This document shows, one piece after another, positions 9,427 to 63,608 of a stretch of 64,000 nucleotides of DNA (the first letter of the stretch is position 1; every line of letters starts with the position of its first letter). A program made the position numbers and the translations under genes. Where the stretch lies: contig NZ_VISR01000027.1 of assembly GCF_007827595.1 (NCBI RefSeq), positions 1 through 64,000 of the forward strand, read 5' to 3'. The notes under the pieces were generated by a model. The model saw nothing but the letters and a program-made list of their open reading frames with translations, did no database searches and was not told where the DNA came from. The DNA is from Streptomyces sp. BK340 (GTDB lineage: Bacteria; Actinomycetota; Actinomycetes; Streptomycetales; Streptomycetaceae).

Positions 9427-10644
9427 ATGCCCCCCTTCGACGTCCCCGAGGGCGACCCCTTCGGTCCGCACAACCTTCCCTATGGCGTGTTCTCGCCCTC
9501 CGGCAGCACGGAGCGGACGGTCGGCGTTCGGCTCGGTGACCACGTCCTCGACGCGGGCGCCGCGGCCGCCGCCCTCGGCTCGCCGTACGTCTCCCTGCTC
9601 GCGCAGCCCACCCTCACGCCCCTGCTGGCGGCCGGGCGCACGGCGTGGTCGGACGTGCGGCGCGCGCTGACGGCGTGGGTGACCGTGCCCTCGCACCGGT
9701 CCACGATCGAAGCGCTGTTCCACCCCCTGTCGTCGGTGACCCTCCACCTGCCCTTCGAGGTCGCGGACTACGTCGACTTCTACGCCTCCGAGAACCACGC
9801 CCGGAACGTCGGCCAGATGTTCCGCCCGGACGCCGAGGACTCCCTGACCCCCAACTGGAAGCACCTGCCGATCGGCTACCACGGCCGCTCCGGCACCGTG
9901 GTGGTGTCGGACACGGACGTCGTACGGCCGTCCGGGCAGCGCAAGGGCCCCGCCGACCCGGCACCCGTCTTCGGCCCCTCGATCCGGCTGGACATCGAGG
10001 CCGAGGTCGGCTTCGTGGTGGGCGTGCCCTCGGAGCTGGGCAGGCCGGTCGCGCTCGGCGACTTCCGGGAGCACGTCTTCGGGCTGTGCCTGCTGAACGA
10101 CTGGTCGGCGCGGGACGTCCAGGCCTGGGAGTACGTCCCGCTCGGCCCGTTCCTCGGCAAGTCCTTCGCGACCTCGGTGTCGGCGTGGATCACCCCGCTG
10201 GAGGCGCTGGAGCACGCGCGCGTGGCTCCTCCGGAGCGCACCCACCCGCTGCTGCCCTACCTGGACGACGCCGCGCCGGAGATCGAGCCCGGCGGCTACG
10301 ACCTGCGGATCTCCGTCGCGATCAACGGCCATGTGGTGTCCGAGCCGCCGTTCTCCAGCATGTACTGGACCGCGGCCCAGCAGCTCGCCCACATGACGGT
10401 GAACGGCGCTTCCCTGCGCACCGGCGACCTGTACGGCTCGGGCACGGTGAGCGGCCCGGCGGAGAACCAGCGCGGCTCACTGCTGGAGCTGACCTGGAAC
10501 GGCCGCGACCCGCTCGAACTCCCGGACGGCAAGCGGACGTTCCTGGAGGACGGCGACGTCGTGACGATGTCGGCGTGGGCGCCGGGGGCGGACGGGGGCC
10601 GGGTGGGTCTCGGGGAGGTCAGCGGCCGCGTCGTCTCGGGCTGA
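9427..10644 (+). CDS. Fumarylacetoacetase
   Basis: Last step of tyrosine/homogentisate degradation: hydrolysis of fumarylacetoacetate to fumarate and acetoacetate, in the cytoplasm. 405 aa, full length. The SH3-like N-terminal domain is followed by the catalytic beta-roll. Metal ligands are visible as Asp117 (DYVDFYAS), Glu191 and Glu193 (DIEAEVGF) and the Asp of LNDWSARD; the catalytic His is His124 (SENHARN). GPFLGKSFATS and the C-terminal SGTVSGP block match the family. The ATG at 9427 follows GCGAGG; an in-frame ATG 30 nt upstream has no ribosome site. No other homogentisate gene is in the window. Expression is probably controlled through the inverted repeat just upstream. Confidence 0.93.
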   Translation: MPPFDVPEGDPFGPHNLPYGVFSPSGSTERTVGVRLGDHVLDAGAAAAALGSPYVSLLAQPTLTPLLAAGRTAWSDVRRALTAWVTVPSHRSTIEALFHPLSSVTLHLPFEVADYVDFYASENHARNVGQMFRPDAEDSLTPNWKHLPIGYHGRSGTVVVSDTDVVRPSGQRKGPADPAPVFGPSIRLDIEAEVGFVVGVPSELGRPVALGDFREHVFGLCLLNDWSARDVQAWEYVPLGPFLGKSFATSVSAWITPLEALEHARVAPPERTHPLLPYLDDAAPEIEPGGYDLRISVAINGHVVSEPPFSSMYWTAAQQLAHMTVNGASLRTGDLYGSGTVSGPAENQRGSLLELTWNGRDPLELPDGKRTFLEDGDVVTMSAWAPGADGGRVGLGEVSGRVVSG

Positions 10645-10694
10645 GCCCCGTTCCGGGTCGTCTCGGGCCGAGCTTTGCACCGGACGGGCCGAGA

Positions 10695-10771
10695 CTTGTA
10701 TCAAGCAATTGACACAAGTCCGCCGTGATGCCATCTTGTACTCACCACTTGATACAAGCGGTGAGTACAAG
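10695..10771. promoter_or_regulatory. Operator array of five CTTGTA-type half-sites
   Basis: Site 1 at 10695-10718 is CTTGTATCAA-GCAA-TTGACACAAG. Site 2 at 10735-10758 is CTTGTACTCA-CCAC-TTGATACAAG, with the same 10-4-10 geometry exactly 40 bp later. A fifth half-site at 10760-10771 (GGTGAGTACAAG) pairs perfectly with 10735-10746. The array ends 25 bp before the membrane-protein start. The GntR regulator in the same operon is the likely binder. Confidence 0.75.
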
Positions 10772-10796
10772 ATGCTCACTTTCACGGGGGTTTGTC

Positions 10797-11615
10797 ATGG
10801 CTGATGCCGACCTTGGTACGACGGCTCCGGCGTCCCGCGTGCCCGTCGACCGCTACGCCCGCTGGACGGGCCTGATCGTCGGCGCGCTCGTCGGCCGCTG
10901 GCTGTCCTCGCTCGACCACGGCGACGGGGTGCTGTACGCCATCCCGGCGTTCGGACTGTGCGCGGTGGCCGGCGTCCTGGCGGGCGACGCGCTGACCCCG
11001 CCGGCTCAGGGCACCGTCCGCACGGCGGGGCTCGCCCCGCGCCGCGTCCGGGCCTATGTGCCGCCGCGCGTGACCTGGCTGCTCCTGGCCCTCGCGGGGG
11101 CGCTGGTGGTGCTGCTCGTGGTGGCGGGCGCGATCGCCTCACCGGACGACCTGGGGCACGCGGGGCGCGCCCTCACGGCGACCTGCCGGGGCGTCACCCA
11201 GTCGGCCACACCCTGGCCCGGCTTCCACTACGGCCTGCCGATGCTGTCCTCCCTGGCCGTCGCCACGGCCGCCTGCGGCTGGTCCCTGCGGCGGATCGCG
11301 ACCCGGCCCGGCGACGAACAGTCCCGCCGCGACCGCAGCCTCGCCGTCGTCGCCGCCTGGGGACTGGTCGTGTCCGCCTCCCTGCTGGGCGCCGCCTCGA
11401 CGGCGTCCGGGGCACTGATGGACATCAGCTGCGACGGCACCGCCGGGACGGTGGCCAACGCGGTGCTGTGGCCGCTGGCCACGCTCGCGCTCGCGACCGT
11501 GCCGTGGACGCTGGTCACGGTGTGCTCCCCGCGGGCGTCGTGGGGGCGCCGGTCCGCCGCCGGTGACCGTCGCCGGCGGGCGCTCCGCCGGCCGGGCTCG
11601 GGGGAACGCCGGTGA
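10797..11615 (+). CDS. Multi-pass membrane protein co-transcribed with a GntR regulator
   Basis: 272 aa of unknown function. About five to six transmembrane segments: around residues 20-35, 45-62, 95-118, 150-170, 190-212 and 222-242, with an Arg-rich C-terminal tail. The extracellular loop before the fourth segment (ATCRGVTQSATPWPGFHYG) and one late in the protein (DISCDGTAGT) each contain a Cys that could pair. ATG at 10797 has a G-run ribosome site. Its stop overlaps the GTG of the GntR gene (GTGA), so they are translationally coupled. Membrane-protein/YtrA-type pairs are usually regulated by the partner in response to envelope stress, which is the likely context here. Confidence 0.65.
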   Translation: MADADLGTTAPASRVPVDRYARWTGLIVGALVGRWLSSLDHGDGVLYAIPAFGLCAVAGVLAGDALTPPAQGTVRTAGLAPRRVRAYVPPRVTWLLLALAGALVVLLVVAGAIASPDDLGHAGRALTATCRGVTQSATPWPGFHYGLPMLSSLAVATAACGWSLRRIATRPGDEQSRRDRSLAVVAAWGLVVSASLLGAASTASGALMDISCDGTAGTVANAVLWPLATLALATVPWTLVTVCSPRASWGRRSAAGDRRRRALRRPGSGERR

Positions 11616-11992
11616 ACGGCGCGGTCGTGCGGGTCGACACCACCAGTCCCGTCCCGCCCTACGAACAGATCCGCGCCCAGCTCGCCGCCCTGATCACCAC
11701 CGGTCGCCTGCCCGAGGGCGAACGGCTGCCGACGGTACGGCAGCTGGCGGCCGACCTGGGCCTGGCGGCGGGTACGGTGGCCCGCGCCTACCGCGAGCTG
11801 GAGGCGGCCTCCCTGATCCGGACACGGCGCGGCGCGGGCACCCGCGTGGCCCCGCTGCCGGCCCCGGCCGACCGCCCGGACCCGGCAGCCGAACTCGCGG
11901 CACTGGCCGACGGGTTCGTGGGACAGGCGCGGGCGCTCGGGGCGACGGAGGAGCAGGTGACCGCGGCGGTCCGGGCGGCGCTGCGCGCATAG
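11612..11992 (+). CDS. GntR-family regulator, YtrA subfamily
   Basis: 126 aa. An N-terminal winged helix (residues about 8-75) with PPYEQIRAQLAALITTGRLPEGERLPTVRQLAADLGLAAGTVARAYRELEAASLIRTRRGAGTRV is followed by only about 45 residues, the hallmark of the YtrA subfamily, which lacks a large ligand-binding domain. It should repress its own operon as a dimer through the CTTGTA array upstream of the membrane-protein gene. The GTG at 11612 overlaps the preceding stop by 4 nt. Confidence 0.88.
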   Translation: MNGAVVRVDTTSPVPPYEQIRAQLAALITTGRLPEGERLPTVRQLAADLGLAAGTVARAYRELEAASLIRTRRGAGTRVAPLPAPADRPDPAAELAALADGFVGQARALGATEEQVTAAVRAALRA

Positions 11993-54318: not shown

Positions 54319-55176
<858 letters not shown>

Positions 55177-58134: not shown

Positions 58135-58284
58135 GCGCGGTTGAAACCAGGAGTACCGGGAGCCCGCCCCGTGCCGGGAACCGGCGGGGACGGCATGGGG
58201 ATCGCTCGCCACGAGCATCGGATGCGGCGTCGGGGAGAGGCCCGGCGACCGGATCACGATCCGTCTCTTCCTGGGGGTTGACCT

Positions 58285-58488
58285 ATGCGCGCCATCGCAC
58301 TGCGTACGAAGACGGTTCTGACCGCGCTCACCGGCGCCGGCGTCCTGGCACTCGGCACCGGTGCGGCCGTTCCCGCGACCGGTGTTCAGGATGCCGTGGT
58401 GCGCATCGCCTCCGGTCTGTCGGGGCACCAGGCGCACTCCGGGCCGTCTCTGGCGGACGAGCGCGAGCCGAAGCTGGTCCACTACTGA
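58285..58488 (+). CDS. Small secreted protein of unknown function
   Basis: 67 aa: MRAIALRTKTVLTALTGAGV hydrophobic signal, cleavage possibly near AVPA (about residue 31), then a short polar mature region (SGHQAHSGPSLADEREPKL). ATG follows GGGGG. No known family. Confidence 0.55.
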   Translation: MRAIALRTKTVLTALTGAGVLALGTGAAVPATGVQDAVVRIASGLSGHQAHSGPSLADEREPKLVHY

Positions 58489-58610: not shown

Positions 58611-61600
58611 CTAGACACGCCGCCCCGCCTCGGTCACGCCCATCGCGTCGTACAGCGCCTCCGCCGCCCGCCAGTGCTGACGTGCCATCGATTCATCGCC
58701 CAGGGCCTGCGCCGCCTCGGCCATGCCGTGCAGGGCGCGGGCGGTCTCGAACCGGTAGCCGAGGCGGGAGGCCAACTCATGGGCGTGGCCATGCAGTTCC
58801 ATGGCACGGTCGGGTGCGCCGCGGCGCAGGTGGACCAGGCCCACCACGTTCGCCACGGTCGACTGGCGCAGAGCCGTGCCCTCGGCGGAGACCAGGTCCA
58901 GGGCACGCTCGGCGTGTTCGGCTGCCGTACGCGTGTCCCCGAGCCGCTGGCAGACCCGCGCCCAGTGGGCGAGGACGACGGCCACGTTCGCGGGTCTTCG
59001 GGACTCGTCGCACAGTTCGAGGGCCTGGGCGAGGCAGGCCCGCGCCCGCTCGTCCTCACCGGTGCCCAGATGGGCCAAGGCAAGCCAGGTCAGCGACGAG
59101 ATCTCGTTGTTCCGCTCGCCGAGACGCCGGTTCAGTTCGGTGGCGCGAGCCGCGTGCCGGGCGGCCTCGGCGTAGTGGCCCGCCCAGGTCTGTACCGTGC
59201 TGAGGTTGACCAGCGCCTGAGCCTCGTCGCGGGGCGCACCCAACTCCCGGTGCAGCTCGATACCTTGGGCCAGATGAGCGCGGGCCTCGTCGAAGTTGCC
59301 GAGTGCCCCGTGCAGCAGGCCGAGCACATCGAGGCAGAACGCCTCGGTGCTGCGATCGTGGCTGCCGGCCAGTTCCAGGGCCTCCTGGGCGGTGCTGATC
59401 CCGTCCTGGAAGTCGCCGAGCCACCAGTGCGCCACGGCCAGGTTACCGAGGCTGATGCCGAGCAGCACCGGGTCGTCGAGCCGCTGGCAGGCGCCGACCG
59501 CGATCCGGCTGACGACCCGGAACTGCTCGTAGTGTCCACGCAAGTTCAAATAGAACAGGACATTGCGGGCCAGGAGCGCGGCCCGGCGGTGCAGGCGCTG
59601 TGTGCCCGCCTGCGCGACGATCGCGAGCAGTGCCTCGTACTCGCGGTCGAACCAGCGCAGCACCCGCTCGTCGCCGTCCAACCGGGGCAGTTCGGGCGCG
59701 TCGTCGGTCGGCGGGTCGCCGTGGCGGCTACGGCCGGGGAAGAGCACATCGCAGGCTTTGTCGGTGGCCAGCGCGTAGTACGCCACCAGGCGCCCGCCGG
59801 CCGCCTCCTCGTCGTCCTCGGCCTCCCGCACGCTCATCGCGTAGGTCCGCACCAGATCGTGGAAGCCGTACAGCCCCGCCTCGTGCTGTTCCAGCAGATG
59901 CGTGTCGAGCAGATGCTCCAGGACGTCCTCGGCTCCGTGGACGTCGGTGCCGAGCAGCGCGGCGGCCGAGTGGACATCGATGGCGCTGCCGGGGTGCAGG
60001 CCGAGCAAGCGGAACGCGGCGCGCAGGTCCTCCTCCATCGCCTGGTACGACAGCCTGAGCGTGGCCTCGACACTGCGCTCCCCGGCGCTCATCTCGCGCA
60101 GCCGCCGGGTCTCGTCGGCAAGCCGGTCGACCAGGTACTGGACGGTCCAGCGGGGCCGGTTGCGCAGCCGGGCGGTGGTGATGCGCAGGGCGAGGGGCAG
60201 GCCGCAGCACAGCCGGGCGAGCTGGTCGACTGCCTGGGGTTCGGCGGAGGTCCGCTCGGCGCCGAGCATCCGGGTCAGCAGGGTGGTGCTGTCGCCGGCC
60301 GAGAGCAGCCCCAGCGAGAGCCACTCGGCGCCGTCGAGTTCGAGCATCCGGACCCGGCCGGTGAGGATGGCCAGACAGTTCTCGGAAGCGGGCAGCAGCG
60401 GCCGTACCTGGGCGGCGTCGGCGGCATTGTCGAGGAGGAGCAGCAGCTTCCGCTGGGCGGAAACGGTTCGCCACAGGGTGGTGCGCCGCTCCAGGTCGTC
60501 CGGTATTCGGTCGTCCTGGACGCCGATGGTGCGGAGCAGGGAGTGCAGGACCGCACCGGGCTCCTGCGCCTTCTCGCCAGGGCTGAACCCACGCAGGTCG
60601 ACGAAGAGCTGCCCGTCGGGGTAGTCCGGCGCGAGCAGGTGGGCGGCGTGCACGGCCAGGGCGGTCTTGCCGCTGCCGCCCATGCCGTCCAGACCGACGA
60701 TCCGGGTGCTCACGCCGGTCGGGGCCCTGCCCACTTCCAGCAGCCGGGCCAACTCCTCGTCCCGCCCGGTGAAGTCCGGCAGGTCGTACGGCAGGGTGCA
60801 GGGCACCGGCTCGGACCCGTCAGGCTGTGCGAGCGGGGCCGGTACGAGGTGGGCGGCGCGGTCGGCCACGGACTGCGGTACCCGGGGTGCCACTTCGGGG
60901 CTGTCGCGCAGAATGGCTTCGTACAGCCTTGTCAGTTCGGCGCCCGGGTCGATGCCCAGCTCCTCGACGAGCAGTTCGCGCACCCGGCCGAACTCCTCCA
61001 GCGCATCGGCCTGCCGGCCGCCCCGGTACAGGGCCAGCATCAGCCGTCCGCGCAGGGTCTCCCGCAGCGGGTGCGCGGTCACCAACTCGCGTAGAGGTCC
61101 GATGAGTTCCGCGGACTGGCCGAGTTCCAGCTGCAGCTCGAAGTACTGCTCGGCGACGGCCATGTGCCGTTCCTCGAGCGCGGCGGAGGCCGCGGAGATC
61201 ACCGAACCGCCCGTTCCGGCCATGACCGGACCCCGCCACAGGTCCAGACAGGCCCGCAGATGCCTGACGGCCTCCGCGGGCTGACCGGCGGCCACCGCCT
61301 GCCGGGCCTCGGCCGAGCGGCGGCCGAACTCGTGCAGGTCGAGCTGGCCCTCGTCGATGACGGCCCGGTATCCGGCGCCGTCGGTGACGATCAGTCCGGC
61401 GCCGCCCGGTATCCGGGTGCGCAGCGCGGCGACCGCCTTGCGGATCTGGTGGCCGGCGGTCTGCGGCGGCTCGTCGTCCCAGGCCGCGGCGACCAGCCGG
61501 GGCACCGGCACCATACGCCCCGGCTCCAGTAAGAGCGTGACCAGAACGCGTTCCTGGGTCGGGCTGCCGAGTCTCAGCCGACGCTGGCCGTGCCAGCCCT

Positions 61601-61658
61601 CCAACGAACCGAGGATGTTGAAGCGCACGACAGGCCGAGCGGATACCGCCGACTCCAC
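58611..61658 (-). CDS. AfsR-like SARP-family regulator (BTAD, NB-ARC, TPR)
   Basis: 1015 aa. Residues about 1-250: OmpR-type winged helix and BTAD activator domain (GSPTQERVLVTLLLEPGRMV... HPLRETLRGRLMLALYRGGRQADALEEFGRVRELL). Residues about 290-600: NB-ARC ATPase with P-loop GMGGSGKTA (325-333) and KLLLLLDNAADAAQVRPLLP. Residues about 690-1000: TPR repeats (TAQEALELAG, ARAHLAQGIELHRELG). Large SARPs integrate kinase signals and activate pathway genes. Leu43 is encoded by TTA, so translation should depend on the bldA tRNA. GTG start 61658 after a G-run. It and the small SARP are read in the same direction. Confidence 0.93.
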   Translation of the reverse strand: MESAVSARPVVRFNILGSLEGWHGQRRLRLGSPTQERVLVTLLLEPGRMVPVPRLVAAAWDDEPPQTAGHQIRKAVAALRTRIPGGAGLIVTDGAGYRAVIDEGQLDLHEFGRRSAEARQAVAAGQPAEAVRHLRACLDLWRGPVMAGTGGSVISAASAALEERHMAVAEQYFELQLELGQSAELIGPLRELVTAHPLRETLRGRLMLALYRGGRQADALEEFGRVRELLVEELGIDPGAELTRLYEAILRDSPEVAPRVPQSVADRAAHLVPAPLAQPDGSEPVPCTLPYDLPDFTGRDEELARLLEVGRAPTGVSTRIVGLDGMGGSGKTALAVHAAHLLAPDYPDGQLFVDLRGFSPGEKAQEPGAVLHSLLRTIGVQDDRIPDDLERRTTLWRTVSAQRKLLLLLDNAADAAQVRPLLPASENCLAILTGRVRMLELDGAEWLSLGLLSAGDSTTLLTRMLGAERTSAEPQAVDQLARLCCGLPLALRITTARLRNRPRWTVQYLVDRLADETRRLREMSAGERSVEATLRLSYQAMEEDLRAAFRLLGLHPGSAIDVHSAAALLGTDVHGAEDVLEHLLDTHLLEQHEAGLYGFHDLVRTYAMSVREAEDDEEAAGGRLVAYYALATDKACDVLFPGRSRHGDPPTDDAPELPRLDGDERVLRWFDREYEALLAIVAQAGTQRLHRRAALLARNVLFYLNLRGHYEQFRVVSRIAVGACQRLDDPVLLGISLGNLAVAHWWLGDFQDGISTAQEALELAGSHDRSTEAFCLDVLGLLHGALGNFDEARAHLAQGIELHRELGAPRDEAQALVNLSTVQTWAGHYAEAARHAARATELNRRLGERNNEISSLTWLALAHLGTGEDERARACLAQALELCDESRRPANVAVVLAHWARVCQRLGDTRTAAEHAERALDLVSAEGTALRQSTVANVVGLVHLRRGAPDRAMELHGHAHELASRLGYRFETARALHGMAEAAQALGDESMARQHWRAAEALYDAMGVTEAGRRV

Positions 61659-61797: not shown

Positions 61798-62592
61798 TTA
61801 CGCAAGTTGAAGGAGCGAGGAACGCGCATCACCGGCCAAAGCCGGGTCATGGCGGAGAATCGCGCTCTCGACGTGCCGCAGGGCGGGGGATGGCTGGATG
61901 CCGAGTTCGTCGTCGAGGTGGCGGCGCATCCGGCGGAAGACGTCCAGGGCGTCGGCCTGCCGTCCCGAGCCGTACAGGGCGATCATCAGCTGCTCGCAGA
62001 AGCGCTCCCGCAAGGGGTGGTTGGTGTGCGCCTCGGTCAGCTCCGCGAGCACGGCGGCATGCCGGCCCAGCCGCAGCTCGGCGTCGAAGCGCAGCTCCAT
62101 GGCCCGCATCCGGTACTCCTCGTACCGCGCACCGGCCAGCTGGCACAGCGTCCCGCCGGCGAACCCGCCGAAGACGGGTCCGCGCCACTGCGCGAGAGCG
62201 TCGCCGAGCAGCCGCGCGGTGCGCTCCGCGTCCTGCGGGGACGCCGACTCGGCCTGCCGTACCGTGCGCACGAACTCCGCGGCGTCCAGCTCGCCCTCGG
62301 ACACCACCAGCCGGTAGCCGGAGGGGTGGATGGTCACCCGGGATCCGGACCGGCCGGGCTCCAGGCTGCGCAGTCTGCGGCGCAGCCGGCTGACATGGGC
62401 CTGCAGGGCGTTGGCCTGGTTGTCGGGGACCGCGTCACCCCACATCTCCTCGACCAGGCTCTCCCCGGACACCGACTGGCCCTCGCTGATCAGCAGGGTC
62501 TGCACCAGGGTGCGCTGCAGGTCGCCGGAGATCTCCGCCGGGCCGGACACGGTACGGATCTGCAGTGCCCCGAGGATCGAGAACTTCAGCAT
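61798..62592 (-). CDS. Small SARP-family pathway regulator
   Basis: 264 aa with only the DNA-binding winged helix (FSILGALQIRTVSGPAEISG...LRRRLRSLEPGRSGSRVTIHPSGYRLVV) and BTAD (AEFVRTVRQAESASPQDAERTARLLG, HPLRERFCEQLMIALYGSGRQADALDVF). SARPs of this size usually switch on one antibiotic cluster by binding 11-bp-spaced direct repeats; such repeats precede this gene and the next upstream one. No TTA codon seen. Confidence 0.93.
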   Translation of the reverse strand: MLKFSILGALQIRTVSGPAEISGDLQRTLVQTLLISEGQSVSGESLVEEMWGDAVPDNQANALQAHVSRLRRRLRSLEPGRSGSRVTIHPSGYRLVVSEGELDAAEFVRTVRQAESASPQDAERTARLLGDALAQWRGPVFGGFAGGTLCQLAGARYEEYRMRAMELRFDAELRLGRHAAVLAELTEAHTNHPLRERFCEQLMIALYGSGRQADALDVFRRMRRHLDDELGIQPSPALRHVESAILRHDPALAGDARSSLLQLA

Positions 62593-62652: not shown

Positions 62653-62696
62653 ACAGTGCGGTCGGCCCGTACCGGATCGTTCCCGATCCGTTCCCG
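62653..62696 (-). promoter_or_regulatory. SARP-type repeat array of the small SARP gene
   Basis: On the minus strand, CGGGAACGGAT (62696-62686), CGGGAACGATC (62685-62675) and CGGTACGGGCC (62674-62664) are phased at 11 bp. The last heptamer is 9 bp from CACTGT (62658-62653), a possible -10. Confidence 0.7.
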
Positions 62697-62704
62697 GTCG
62701 CCGG

Positions 62705-63523
62705 TCAGCCGCCGTCGCCGACGACCAGGGCGGTGAGGGAGGCGACCCGGCGGGCCGCCAGCTCGGGCGATTCGGCGTGCACGACGAGGTGTCCGGGGCC
62801 CAGCGCCCCGGGCGGCGAGACGTGCCGGACGTGCGGCAGTATCCCGACCTCGGTGGTCTCCAGCCGCCACGGCGGGCTCAGCAGGGCCGCGGCCGCGAAC
62901 CGGTTCGGCCGCACCGCGTCGACCAGCCGGCCGGCCAGCACCTCGATGGCGCCGGCCGCCAGGTCGAACCCGCCGGCCACCTTGACCAGTTCGGGCACCG
63001 GGTCGTCCCCGAGTCCCGCCCGGCAGCCGGTGATCACCGGCCCGCGCGGGGTGAGGGCGACGCTGATGTGGGCCGGTCCGTACTGGTACCCGGTCAGGTC
63101 CAGCAGCGCGGTCACCACCGCGCGCACCTCGGCGGCGGTGTCGTCGGTGAGCGGGGCGGGGTGGAGCAGGCCGTAGGGGGTGCTGGCGGTGATCCCGACG
63201 GCCTGGTGCATGCCGTGCACGCTCAGCGTCTCCACGGTCAGCCGCAGATCACCGGGGGCGACCTCGGTGCCCCCGGGGGAGAGCCGGTTGTCGCGGACCA
63301 GGCGCTGCACGGCCGCCGGGTCCGAGAGCACCCTGAGGGCGCGGGCCGGGTTGACGCACAGCCCGGCCTCGGCGGCCTCCGCGAGCGGTGCGCGCAGGGC
63401 CGCCTCGTCCGTTGCGTCGACCCGGATCGAGCGCACTTGGACACCCGCGTGCGCGGCCTCGCGGACGAGGCGCTGGTCAGGGTTCAGCAGGAAGATTCGG
63501 CGGACGTCGTTGTCTTCTTTCAT
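62705..63523 (-). CDS. Degenerate ATP-grasp-fold protein
   Basis: 272 aa against about 400 for full enzymes. It begins like a Rossmann-like preATP-grasp (FLLNPDQRLVREAAHAGVQVRSIRVDATDE) and then resembles the C-terminal half of a carboxylate ligase (VETLSVHGMHQAVGITAS, LTDDTAAEVRAVVTALLDLTGYQYGPAHISVALTPRGPVITGCRAGLG, ELVKVAGGFDLAAGAIEVLAG). The ATP-binding Lys segments and the EVNARPGG metal site (here GCRAGLG) are lost. It may be a partner or inactive paralogue. Same operon direction as the SARPs and under a SARP-type promoter. Confidence 0.7.
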   Translation of the reverse strand: MKEDNDVRRIFLLNPDQRLVREAAHAGVQVRSIRVDATDEAALRAPLAEAAEAGLCVNPARALRVLSDPAAVQRLVRDNRLSPGGTEVAPGDLRLTVETLSVHGMHQAVGITASTPYGLLHPAPLTDDTAAEVRAVVTALLDLTGYQYGPAHISVALTPRGPVITGCRAGLGDDPVPELVKVAGGFDLAAGAIEVLAGRLVDAVRPNRFAAAALLSPPWRLETTEVGILPHVRHVSPPGALGPGHLVVHAESPELAARRVASLTALVVGDGG

Positions 63524-63564
63524 GCCTCTGCTCGTGGTGACGGAGTCGGCGAGGGTGGAAAGGC

Positions 63565-63608
63565 AGGCTACGAGCGGGCGTTACCGATCCGATCCCGGCC
63601 GGTTCCCG
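63565..63608 (-). promoter_or_regulatory. SARP-type repeat array of the ATP-grasp-like gene
   Basis: On the minus strand, CGGGAACCGGC (63608-63598), CGGGATCGGAT (63597-63587) and CGGTAACGCCC (63586-63576), 11 bp apart, ending 9 bp before TAGCCT (63570-63565). Same spacing as the array before the small SARP gene. Confidence 0.75.

Follow-up and report, generated by a model that had tools for sequence, protein, structure and literature searches.

Three arrays of direct repeats at one Streptomyces locus are very probably operators of the large, AfsR-like SARP encoded beside them, as predicted from sequence comparison across genomes. Arrays A and B precede the gene for a small SARP and a neighboring gene, and array C is weaker. 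By this comparison, the small SARP appears to be regulated by the large one rather than to activate its own gene. The locus lies in the window analyzed here, a stretch of 64,000 nt (bases 1-64000 of contig C27) from a 10.3-Mb genome. An earlier sequence-only reading had recognized SARP-type operators, one of them in front of the small-SARP gene, and had assigned them to the small SARP; we retain the operators and replace the binder.

Array A (62668..62696, minus strand; CGGGAAC-GGAT-CGGGAAC-GATC-CGGTACG) is the putative operator of the small-SARP gene, with a distance of 75 bp to its ATG. Array B (63580..63608, minus strand; CGGGAAC-CGGC-CGGGATC-GGAT-CGGTAAC) is the putative operator of a gene for a 272-aa protein, with 56 bp to the ATG. 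Both are phased at 11 bp, and each is followed 9 bp downstream by a -10-like hexamer of the form NANNNT (A at position 2, T at position 6), namely CACTGT (62653..62658, minus strand) for array A and TAGCCT (63565..63570, minus strand) for array B. The triple heptamers, their phase and the 9-bp distance had been read correctly before; the arrays had also been called identical, but they are only alike and match at 18 of the 21 positions in the heptamers. SARP operators are expected to consist of heptameric direct repeats at 11 bp shortly before a -10, and by appearance arrays A and B look like such operators. The measured gap to the -10 is 9 bp versus 8 bp in the general rule given in PMC10936776, a difference that depends on where the repeat is taken to end.

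A scan of the window with up to three mismatches returned two matches, compared to none in 100 dinucleotide shuffles. Scanning the 10.3-Mb genome returned three places (A, B and C2:350894), and a reversed control pattern gave none, so that the recurrence at random frequency, named earlier as grounds for doubt, did not occur. The match at C2:350894 was set aside as chance, with the hexamer CACGGC instead of NANNNT at 9 bp. Some array-like matches in other genomes (e.g., G138 and G158) were simple tandem repeats, as one would expect if the arrays were chance or low-complexity repeats of a GC-rich genome. This explanation can hardly be true, given the empty shuffles, the lack of any tandem repeat reported by TRF at 57-64 kb and the retention of both arrays together with the 9-bp gap in all 21 loci that have both the 272-aa gene and the small SARP, a number that includes the window itself and the training loci (six, the window among them) and counts at least four loci twice (L038/L215, L039/L219, L041/L206 and L042/L217). 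Orthologous loci in five other genomes retained both arrays, and carriers of the window-type locus include Streptomyces cellostaticus, S. misionensis, S. griseofuscus, S. murinus, S. bungoensis and S. diastatochromogenes. A promoter scan at 58.1-63.7 kb found no sigma-70 -35/-10 pair, which says little since shuffled sequences also gave a mean of only 0.1.

The large SARP (58611..61658, minus strand; 1015 aa) is of the STAND type, with a SARP domain, NB-ARC and TPR. Pfam matches to BTAD (3e-43), NB-ARC (6e-9) and TPR_12 (1e-25) were all above the cutoffs, and the match to Trans_reg_C (8e-4, 19.8 bits) was under the cutoff of 26.2. BTAD, an OmpR-type DNA-binding domain, NB-ARC and TPR are thus combined in one protein, as is characteristic of large SARPs. 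The protein is not an AfsR equivalog, since it scored 591 bits with NCBIfam NF053617, below the cutoff of 1430.

Searching 295 genomes of the genus for the large SARP (E up to 1e-150) yielded 61 places in 59 genomes. We examined 52 of them, 44 with at least 48% identity to the window protein (the closer class) and 8 with 43-45%. A heptamer model was trained only on the 11 arrays of six window-type loci and used with a score threshold of 21. When applied to 40 held-out large-SARP loci, it gave 44 hits in 26 loci at a period of 11. Each of nine other periods (7-10 and 12-16) gave 0-4 hits, and six permuted models gave 0-1. The single hit in 16 control loci was in L122, a locus chosen because it held an array. 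No array reached the threshold in 14 of the 40 held-out loci, and the arrays were distributed very unevenly between the classes: 25 of 32 closer-class loci, which have A, T, D or E at position 92, carried one, compared to 1 of 8 in the 43-45% class, which reads RKTVAKLR. The hexamer NANNNT was present exactly 9 bp downstream of 36 of 42 non-overlapping arrays in the held-out loci (background 1.7%) and, at named loci that are not of the window type (65, of which 51 carry an array), downstream of 78 of 83; at 8 bp it was never found and at 10 bp once in each locus set, and all these counts overstate independence because several loci represent the same species twice and the two sets share some species.

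The recognition helix is conserved as well. It reads QIRKAVAALR in the window protein and mostly HQ[VI]RKAVAxLR, with small variants, in the others; AfsR position 88 is lysine in every large SARP that could be read there (51 of 51; one more row was unreadable). According to PMC10936776, the DNA contacts of AfsR include T88 and R92, versus K88 and A92 in the large SARP of the window. No small SARP with at least 60% identity was found within up to 5 kb on either side in the 64 other named large-SARP loci. Since the arrays go with the large SARP whether or not a small SARP is close by, the large SARP is likely their binder. The locus set was gathered via the large SARP, and an unlinked regulator that coevolves with these loci would also be compatible with the co-occurrence.

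Several other loci have arrays in front of other types of genes. In G125, the large SARP (71-72% identical; L043, G125:C30:13000-32999, with L153) shares its contig with a gene cluster that has arrays at divergent promoters and may be of the C-nucleoside type. It contains genes for a pseudouridine-glycosidase-like protein (Pfam Indigoidine_A), an HAD hydrolase, an FMN reductase, an asparagine synthase and a homolog of the 272-aa protein. In L117, L157, L170, L171, L173, L177 and L178, arrays lie upstream of a gene for a tautomerase-like small protein, a serine-acetyltransferase-like protein or a cupin-like protein. In L168 and L169 (arrays at 11764 and 11982), an array lies ahead of a transposase-like 457-aa gene. 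The tautomerase-, serine-acetyltransferase-, cupin- and transposase-like genes were named by eye from the translations. Arrays before biosynthetic genes suggest that the large SARP may control such genes in other strains.

The small SARP (61798..62592, minus strand; 264 aa) consists only of an OmpR-type DNA-binding domain and BTAD, as is typical for its class (Pfam BTAD 3e-47, Trans_reg_C 3e-10), and matched AfsR chains with an E-value of 4e-36. Its recognition helix is ALQAHVSRLR, with Ala88 and Arg92. This genome has a second copy with 89% identity at G000:C22:57528-58298; all six window-type genomes found in the genus search have such a copy elsewhere (82-89% identical). In a tree, the window-type small-SARP copies formed one clade, and the recognition helix was the same in the small SARP and the paralogs except for a V/I exchange. 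At all 12 paralog loci, which comprise those six and six similar loci in other genomes, the upstream region has GTCAG triplets at 11 bp, with 8 bp to CAATGT or CACTGT (CANNNT). No CGGGAAC-type array reached the threshold in any of 13 stretches fetched at paralog loci. Judged from their position, the GTCAG arrays would be bound by the paralogs of the small SARP.

These data bear on the earlier proposal, in which arrays A and B are bound by the small SARP, which would thereby switch on both its own gene and the neighboring one. The small SARP is a genuine SARP adjoining the arrays, and SARPs are described as binding 11-bp heptamers in PMC10936776 and PMC10972967. We nevertheless consider this unlikely, as paralogs with the same helix sit at GTCAG arrays and not at arrays of the A/B type, many loci have A/B-type arrays in the absence of a small SARP of at least 60% identity, and no GTCAG triplet was found in the window with up to three mismatches. 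That the small SARP activates its own gene, in particular, does not agree with the three GTCAG repeats and the 8-bp distance to CANNNT at the paralog loci. The two SARPs are paralogs and could have some sites in common. A scheme in which both act on arrays A and B, where the large SARP would first open the sites and the small SARP would then provide feedback at them, would fit the relatedness of the DNA-binding domains and the shared 11-bp geometry, and PMC7917814 gives rslR2 as a SARP gene controlled by several SARPs. It is quite improbable, since helix positions 88 and 92 differ, the consensus differs, and the gap to the -10 is 8 bp for GTCAG and 9 bp for the arrays. The co-occurrence of arrays with the large SARP and the GTCAG code of the paralogs together make it likely that the order is from the large to the small SARP.

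In this genome, GTCAG arrays occur at 22 places, with overlaps counted, versus 2 for the reversed control. Nine of the 22 (two overlapping) are on C22, within G000:C22:40001-100000 (L103, L104 and L284), and more are on C2, C20, C21, C23 and others. Genes near these places include those for ketoacyl synthases, a desaturase and an aminotransferase, among others. This suggests a wider predicted regulon of the small SARP or a similar SARP.

The gene behind array B (62705..63523, minus strand) encodes the 272-aa protein, which has no Pfam hit. The match to NCBIfam PRK02186 (E 1e-8) was far under the cutoff. Its AlphaFold model has a mean pLDDT of 90.6, and Foldseek gave the L-amino acid ligase 3vot (3vot_B) as the best match (E 3e-14, TM 0.71 by query length), so the modeled structure points to an ATP-grasp fold like that of L-amino-acid ligases. 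With 272 aa compared to 394-411 aa for 3vot, it is about 120 residues shorter, and it lacks a stretch after about residue 68 that is present in L116 and L121. Relatives at other loci have 118 to 363 aa. With E ≤1e-6 as the limit, 45 of 80 named loci contain the ATP-grasp-like protein, often as a fragment. The window protein is probably a non-catalytic relative, with catalytic residues judged by eye from known motifs.

Array C (58175..58203, plus strand; CGGGAAC-GGGGACG-GGGGATC) was found in a scan at lower threshold, with a score of 16.0 versus the threshold of 21, and had not been part of the sequence-only reading. The hexamer GAGCAT (58213-58218, plus strand), again NANNNT, follows after 9 bp. 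L038-L042 have similar weak arrays at the same place (score 14.0-18.5). The rest of the regulon had been expected beyond the right edge of the window, but the contig from 60 to 120 kb (L005, L006 and L007) held no further array at threshold in a scan with the heptamer model, and the additional site lies to the left, at 58.2 kb. L005 also encodes, outside the window (9822-11852, at about 69.8-71.9 kb of contig C27), a protein that weakly matches the Cas12f1-like TNB family of Pfam (E 6e-6, slightly over the cutoff). Near the module, a menaquinone-biosynthesis gene is located at 54319-55167 (VitK2_biosynth, E 1e-74), and a gene with the same start recurs beside the module in L039-L042.

Array C is the putative operator of a gene for a 67-aa secreted-type peptide (58285..58488, plus strand), which is convergent with the large-SARP gene. 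The peptide has a basic and then hydrophobic N-terminus and ends with ADEREPKLVHY. In a comparison of 14 orthologs, dN/dS was 0.26 in codons 2-30; in the remaining codons it was 0.98, a rough value because of alignment gaps. Using a finder based on a signal-like N-terminus (by a home-made hydropathy rule) and a ribosome site, with no core motif required, we detected such a gene in 41 of 44 closer-class loci, the exceptions being L166, L176 and L179 (close to the end of a contig). Among 80 named loci, two of them with insufficient sequence, 65 had it. Overall, 106 of 124 large-SARP loci, representing 88 distinct SARPs, have a similar gene, the linkage of secreted-type peptide and regulator that is expected for peptide quorum sensing; candidates of more than 230 aa were dropped, as were those that ended at least 400 nt away from the end of the SARP gene, and L220, with a different 160-aa ORF and no array, is left out of the count. 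An upstream array scoring at least 12 was found for 77 of these 88 SARPs. Kitasatospora and Streptacidiphilus are among the named carriers. The core most often reads A-[DSE]-[DNG]-[KQER]-G-P-[TG]-V, and G-P was present in 73 of 88; the core in the window, ADEREPKL, has E-P and is an exception. Cores occur in one to many copies, e.g., as tandem repeats of SGEGPN or DDKGPTVIG, in peptides of up to 217 aa. A stricter test for the core motif was positive in 26 of 44 loci compared to 5 of 1363 random segments of 500 nt. For the class with 43-45% identity (L180-L187), ORFs in four of eight loci are alike at the start and lack the core; they were read as antisense to a coding gene, and by our reading the peptide gene is present in none of the eight. 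No family above the cutoff was found in Pfam (three peptides) or NCBIfam (six peptides), and the repeats of the L117 peptide matched the model of a large repeat protein with 31.5 bits (cutoff 700), which was taken as low complexity and not as a relationship. Searches among open-licence PMC papers showed no report of such a peptide adjoining a SARP.

We propose, tentatively and as a possibility still on the doubtful side, that Streptomyces, Kitasatospora and Streptacidiphilus share a widespread module for signaling between cells. A short peptide, whose core is A-D-x-x-G-P at most loci and is present once or in many tandem copies, would be secreted, processed, taken up and sensed by the STAND-type SARP encoded tail to tail with it. 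The SARP would then activate a local output as well as the peptide promoter, the latter in a positive feedback. At the locus in the window, this output would have been rewired to a second SARP with a near copy at a distant cluster. Coevolution of the peptide core with the TPR domain beyond overall divergence was not supported (partial r 0.06, p 0.24), so the proposed sensing step relies on genetic linkage and shared control. For the core and the ATPase part, r was 0.18 (p 0.005, uncorrected for the six tests made).

The same lack of core-TPR coevolution would fit a convergent gene that is not a signal and encodes instead a RiPP-like precursor, another secreted product that is merely controlled, or an AfsS-like effector; we give this close to an even chance. 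Tandemly repeated cores in peptides of such length, the ATP-grasp-like protein under the same operator type, and the control of the small gene afsS by AfsR (PMC10972967) also agree with it. The ATP-grasp-like protein of the window is a poor candidate for a modifying enzyme, because it is so much shorter than the best-matching enzyme. For the proposed signaling module, peptide signaling of the RRNPP type (Rgg, PlcR, NprR) offers a parallel, in which a TPR-containing regulator adjoins a small secreted-type peptide gene. The module resembles it in having a TPR regulator next to such a gene, which is likely controlled by the regulator. It differs in that RRNPP regulators are HTH-TPR proteins and the regulator here is a STAND-type SARP, with the A-D-x-x-G-P core in most peptides; sensing in our case is hypothetical.

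From the arrays and their conservation, the 9-bp spacing, the co-occurrence with the large SARP, the helix type and the different operator of the paralogs, all of which can be read from sequence, we infer binding, activation, a cascade and a role of the peptide. The ATPase/TPR half of the large SARP would be switched on first. The protein would then bind side by side on the 11-bp heptamers and recruit RNA polymerase to the weak -10 located 9 bp downstream, in the manner solved for AfsR (PMC10936776). It would activate the small-SARP gene through array A, the 272-aa ATP-grasp-like gene through array B and the secreted-type peptide gene through array C. The small SARP would then act elsewhere on GTCAG arrays, e.g., in the C22 cluster, and the locus would form the top of a two-step cascade. 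The small-SARP gene is followed after 139 bp, on the same strand, by the large-SARP gene. Transcription from the promoter at array A may extend into the latter, and a positive loop would close in that case.

Parts of this arrangement have counterparts. PolY of polyoxin biosynthesis is a large SARP and an activator. It activates polR. In rishirilide biosynthesis, RslR3 acts on rslR2, and it is already known that a large SARP can activate the gene of another SARP-type regulator (PMC7917814), just as 11-bp heptamer operators are known (PMC10936776 and PMC10972967). What sets the present case apart from RslR3-RslR2 and PolY is the second copy of the target SARP at a distant cluster, together with the conserved secreted-type peptide gene as part of the module. 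AfsR and its afs box at afsS in Streptomyces coelicolor are alike in combining SARP, NB-ARC and TPR, in the 11-bp direct repeats upstream of the -10 and in the control of a small gene, but the afs box has two repeats of CGTT(T/C)ATCGNN and the arrays here have three (PMC10936776 and PMC10972967). Operators of PimR-type SARP-LAL regulators also consist of three heptamers separated by four nucleotides; these regulators have another C-terminal half, and the site of PimR is described as free of overlap with the -35 box (PMC10972967).

The operator code (three CGG[GT]AAC-like heptamers at 11 bp, with 9 bp to NANNNT) and the helix signature together allow candidate targets of one subfamily of large SARPs to be predicted from sequence. 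Whether an inducer binds to the sensor domain of AfsR is stated as open in PMC10936776, and the linked peptide gene is a concrete and cheap route to this question. If the signaling proposal is true, the module would supply the kind of inducer that is missing for AfsR-like proteins, and if the peptide binds to the sensor domain, synthetic peptides could be used to activate silent clusters across many strains.
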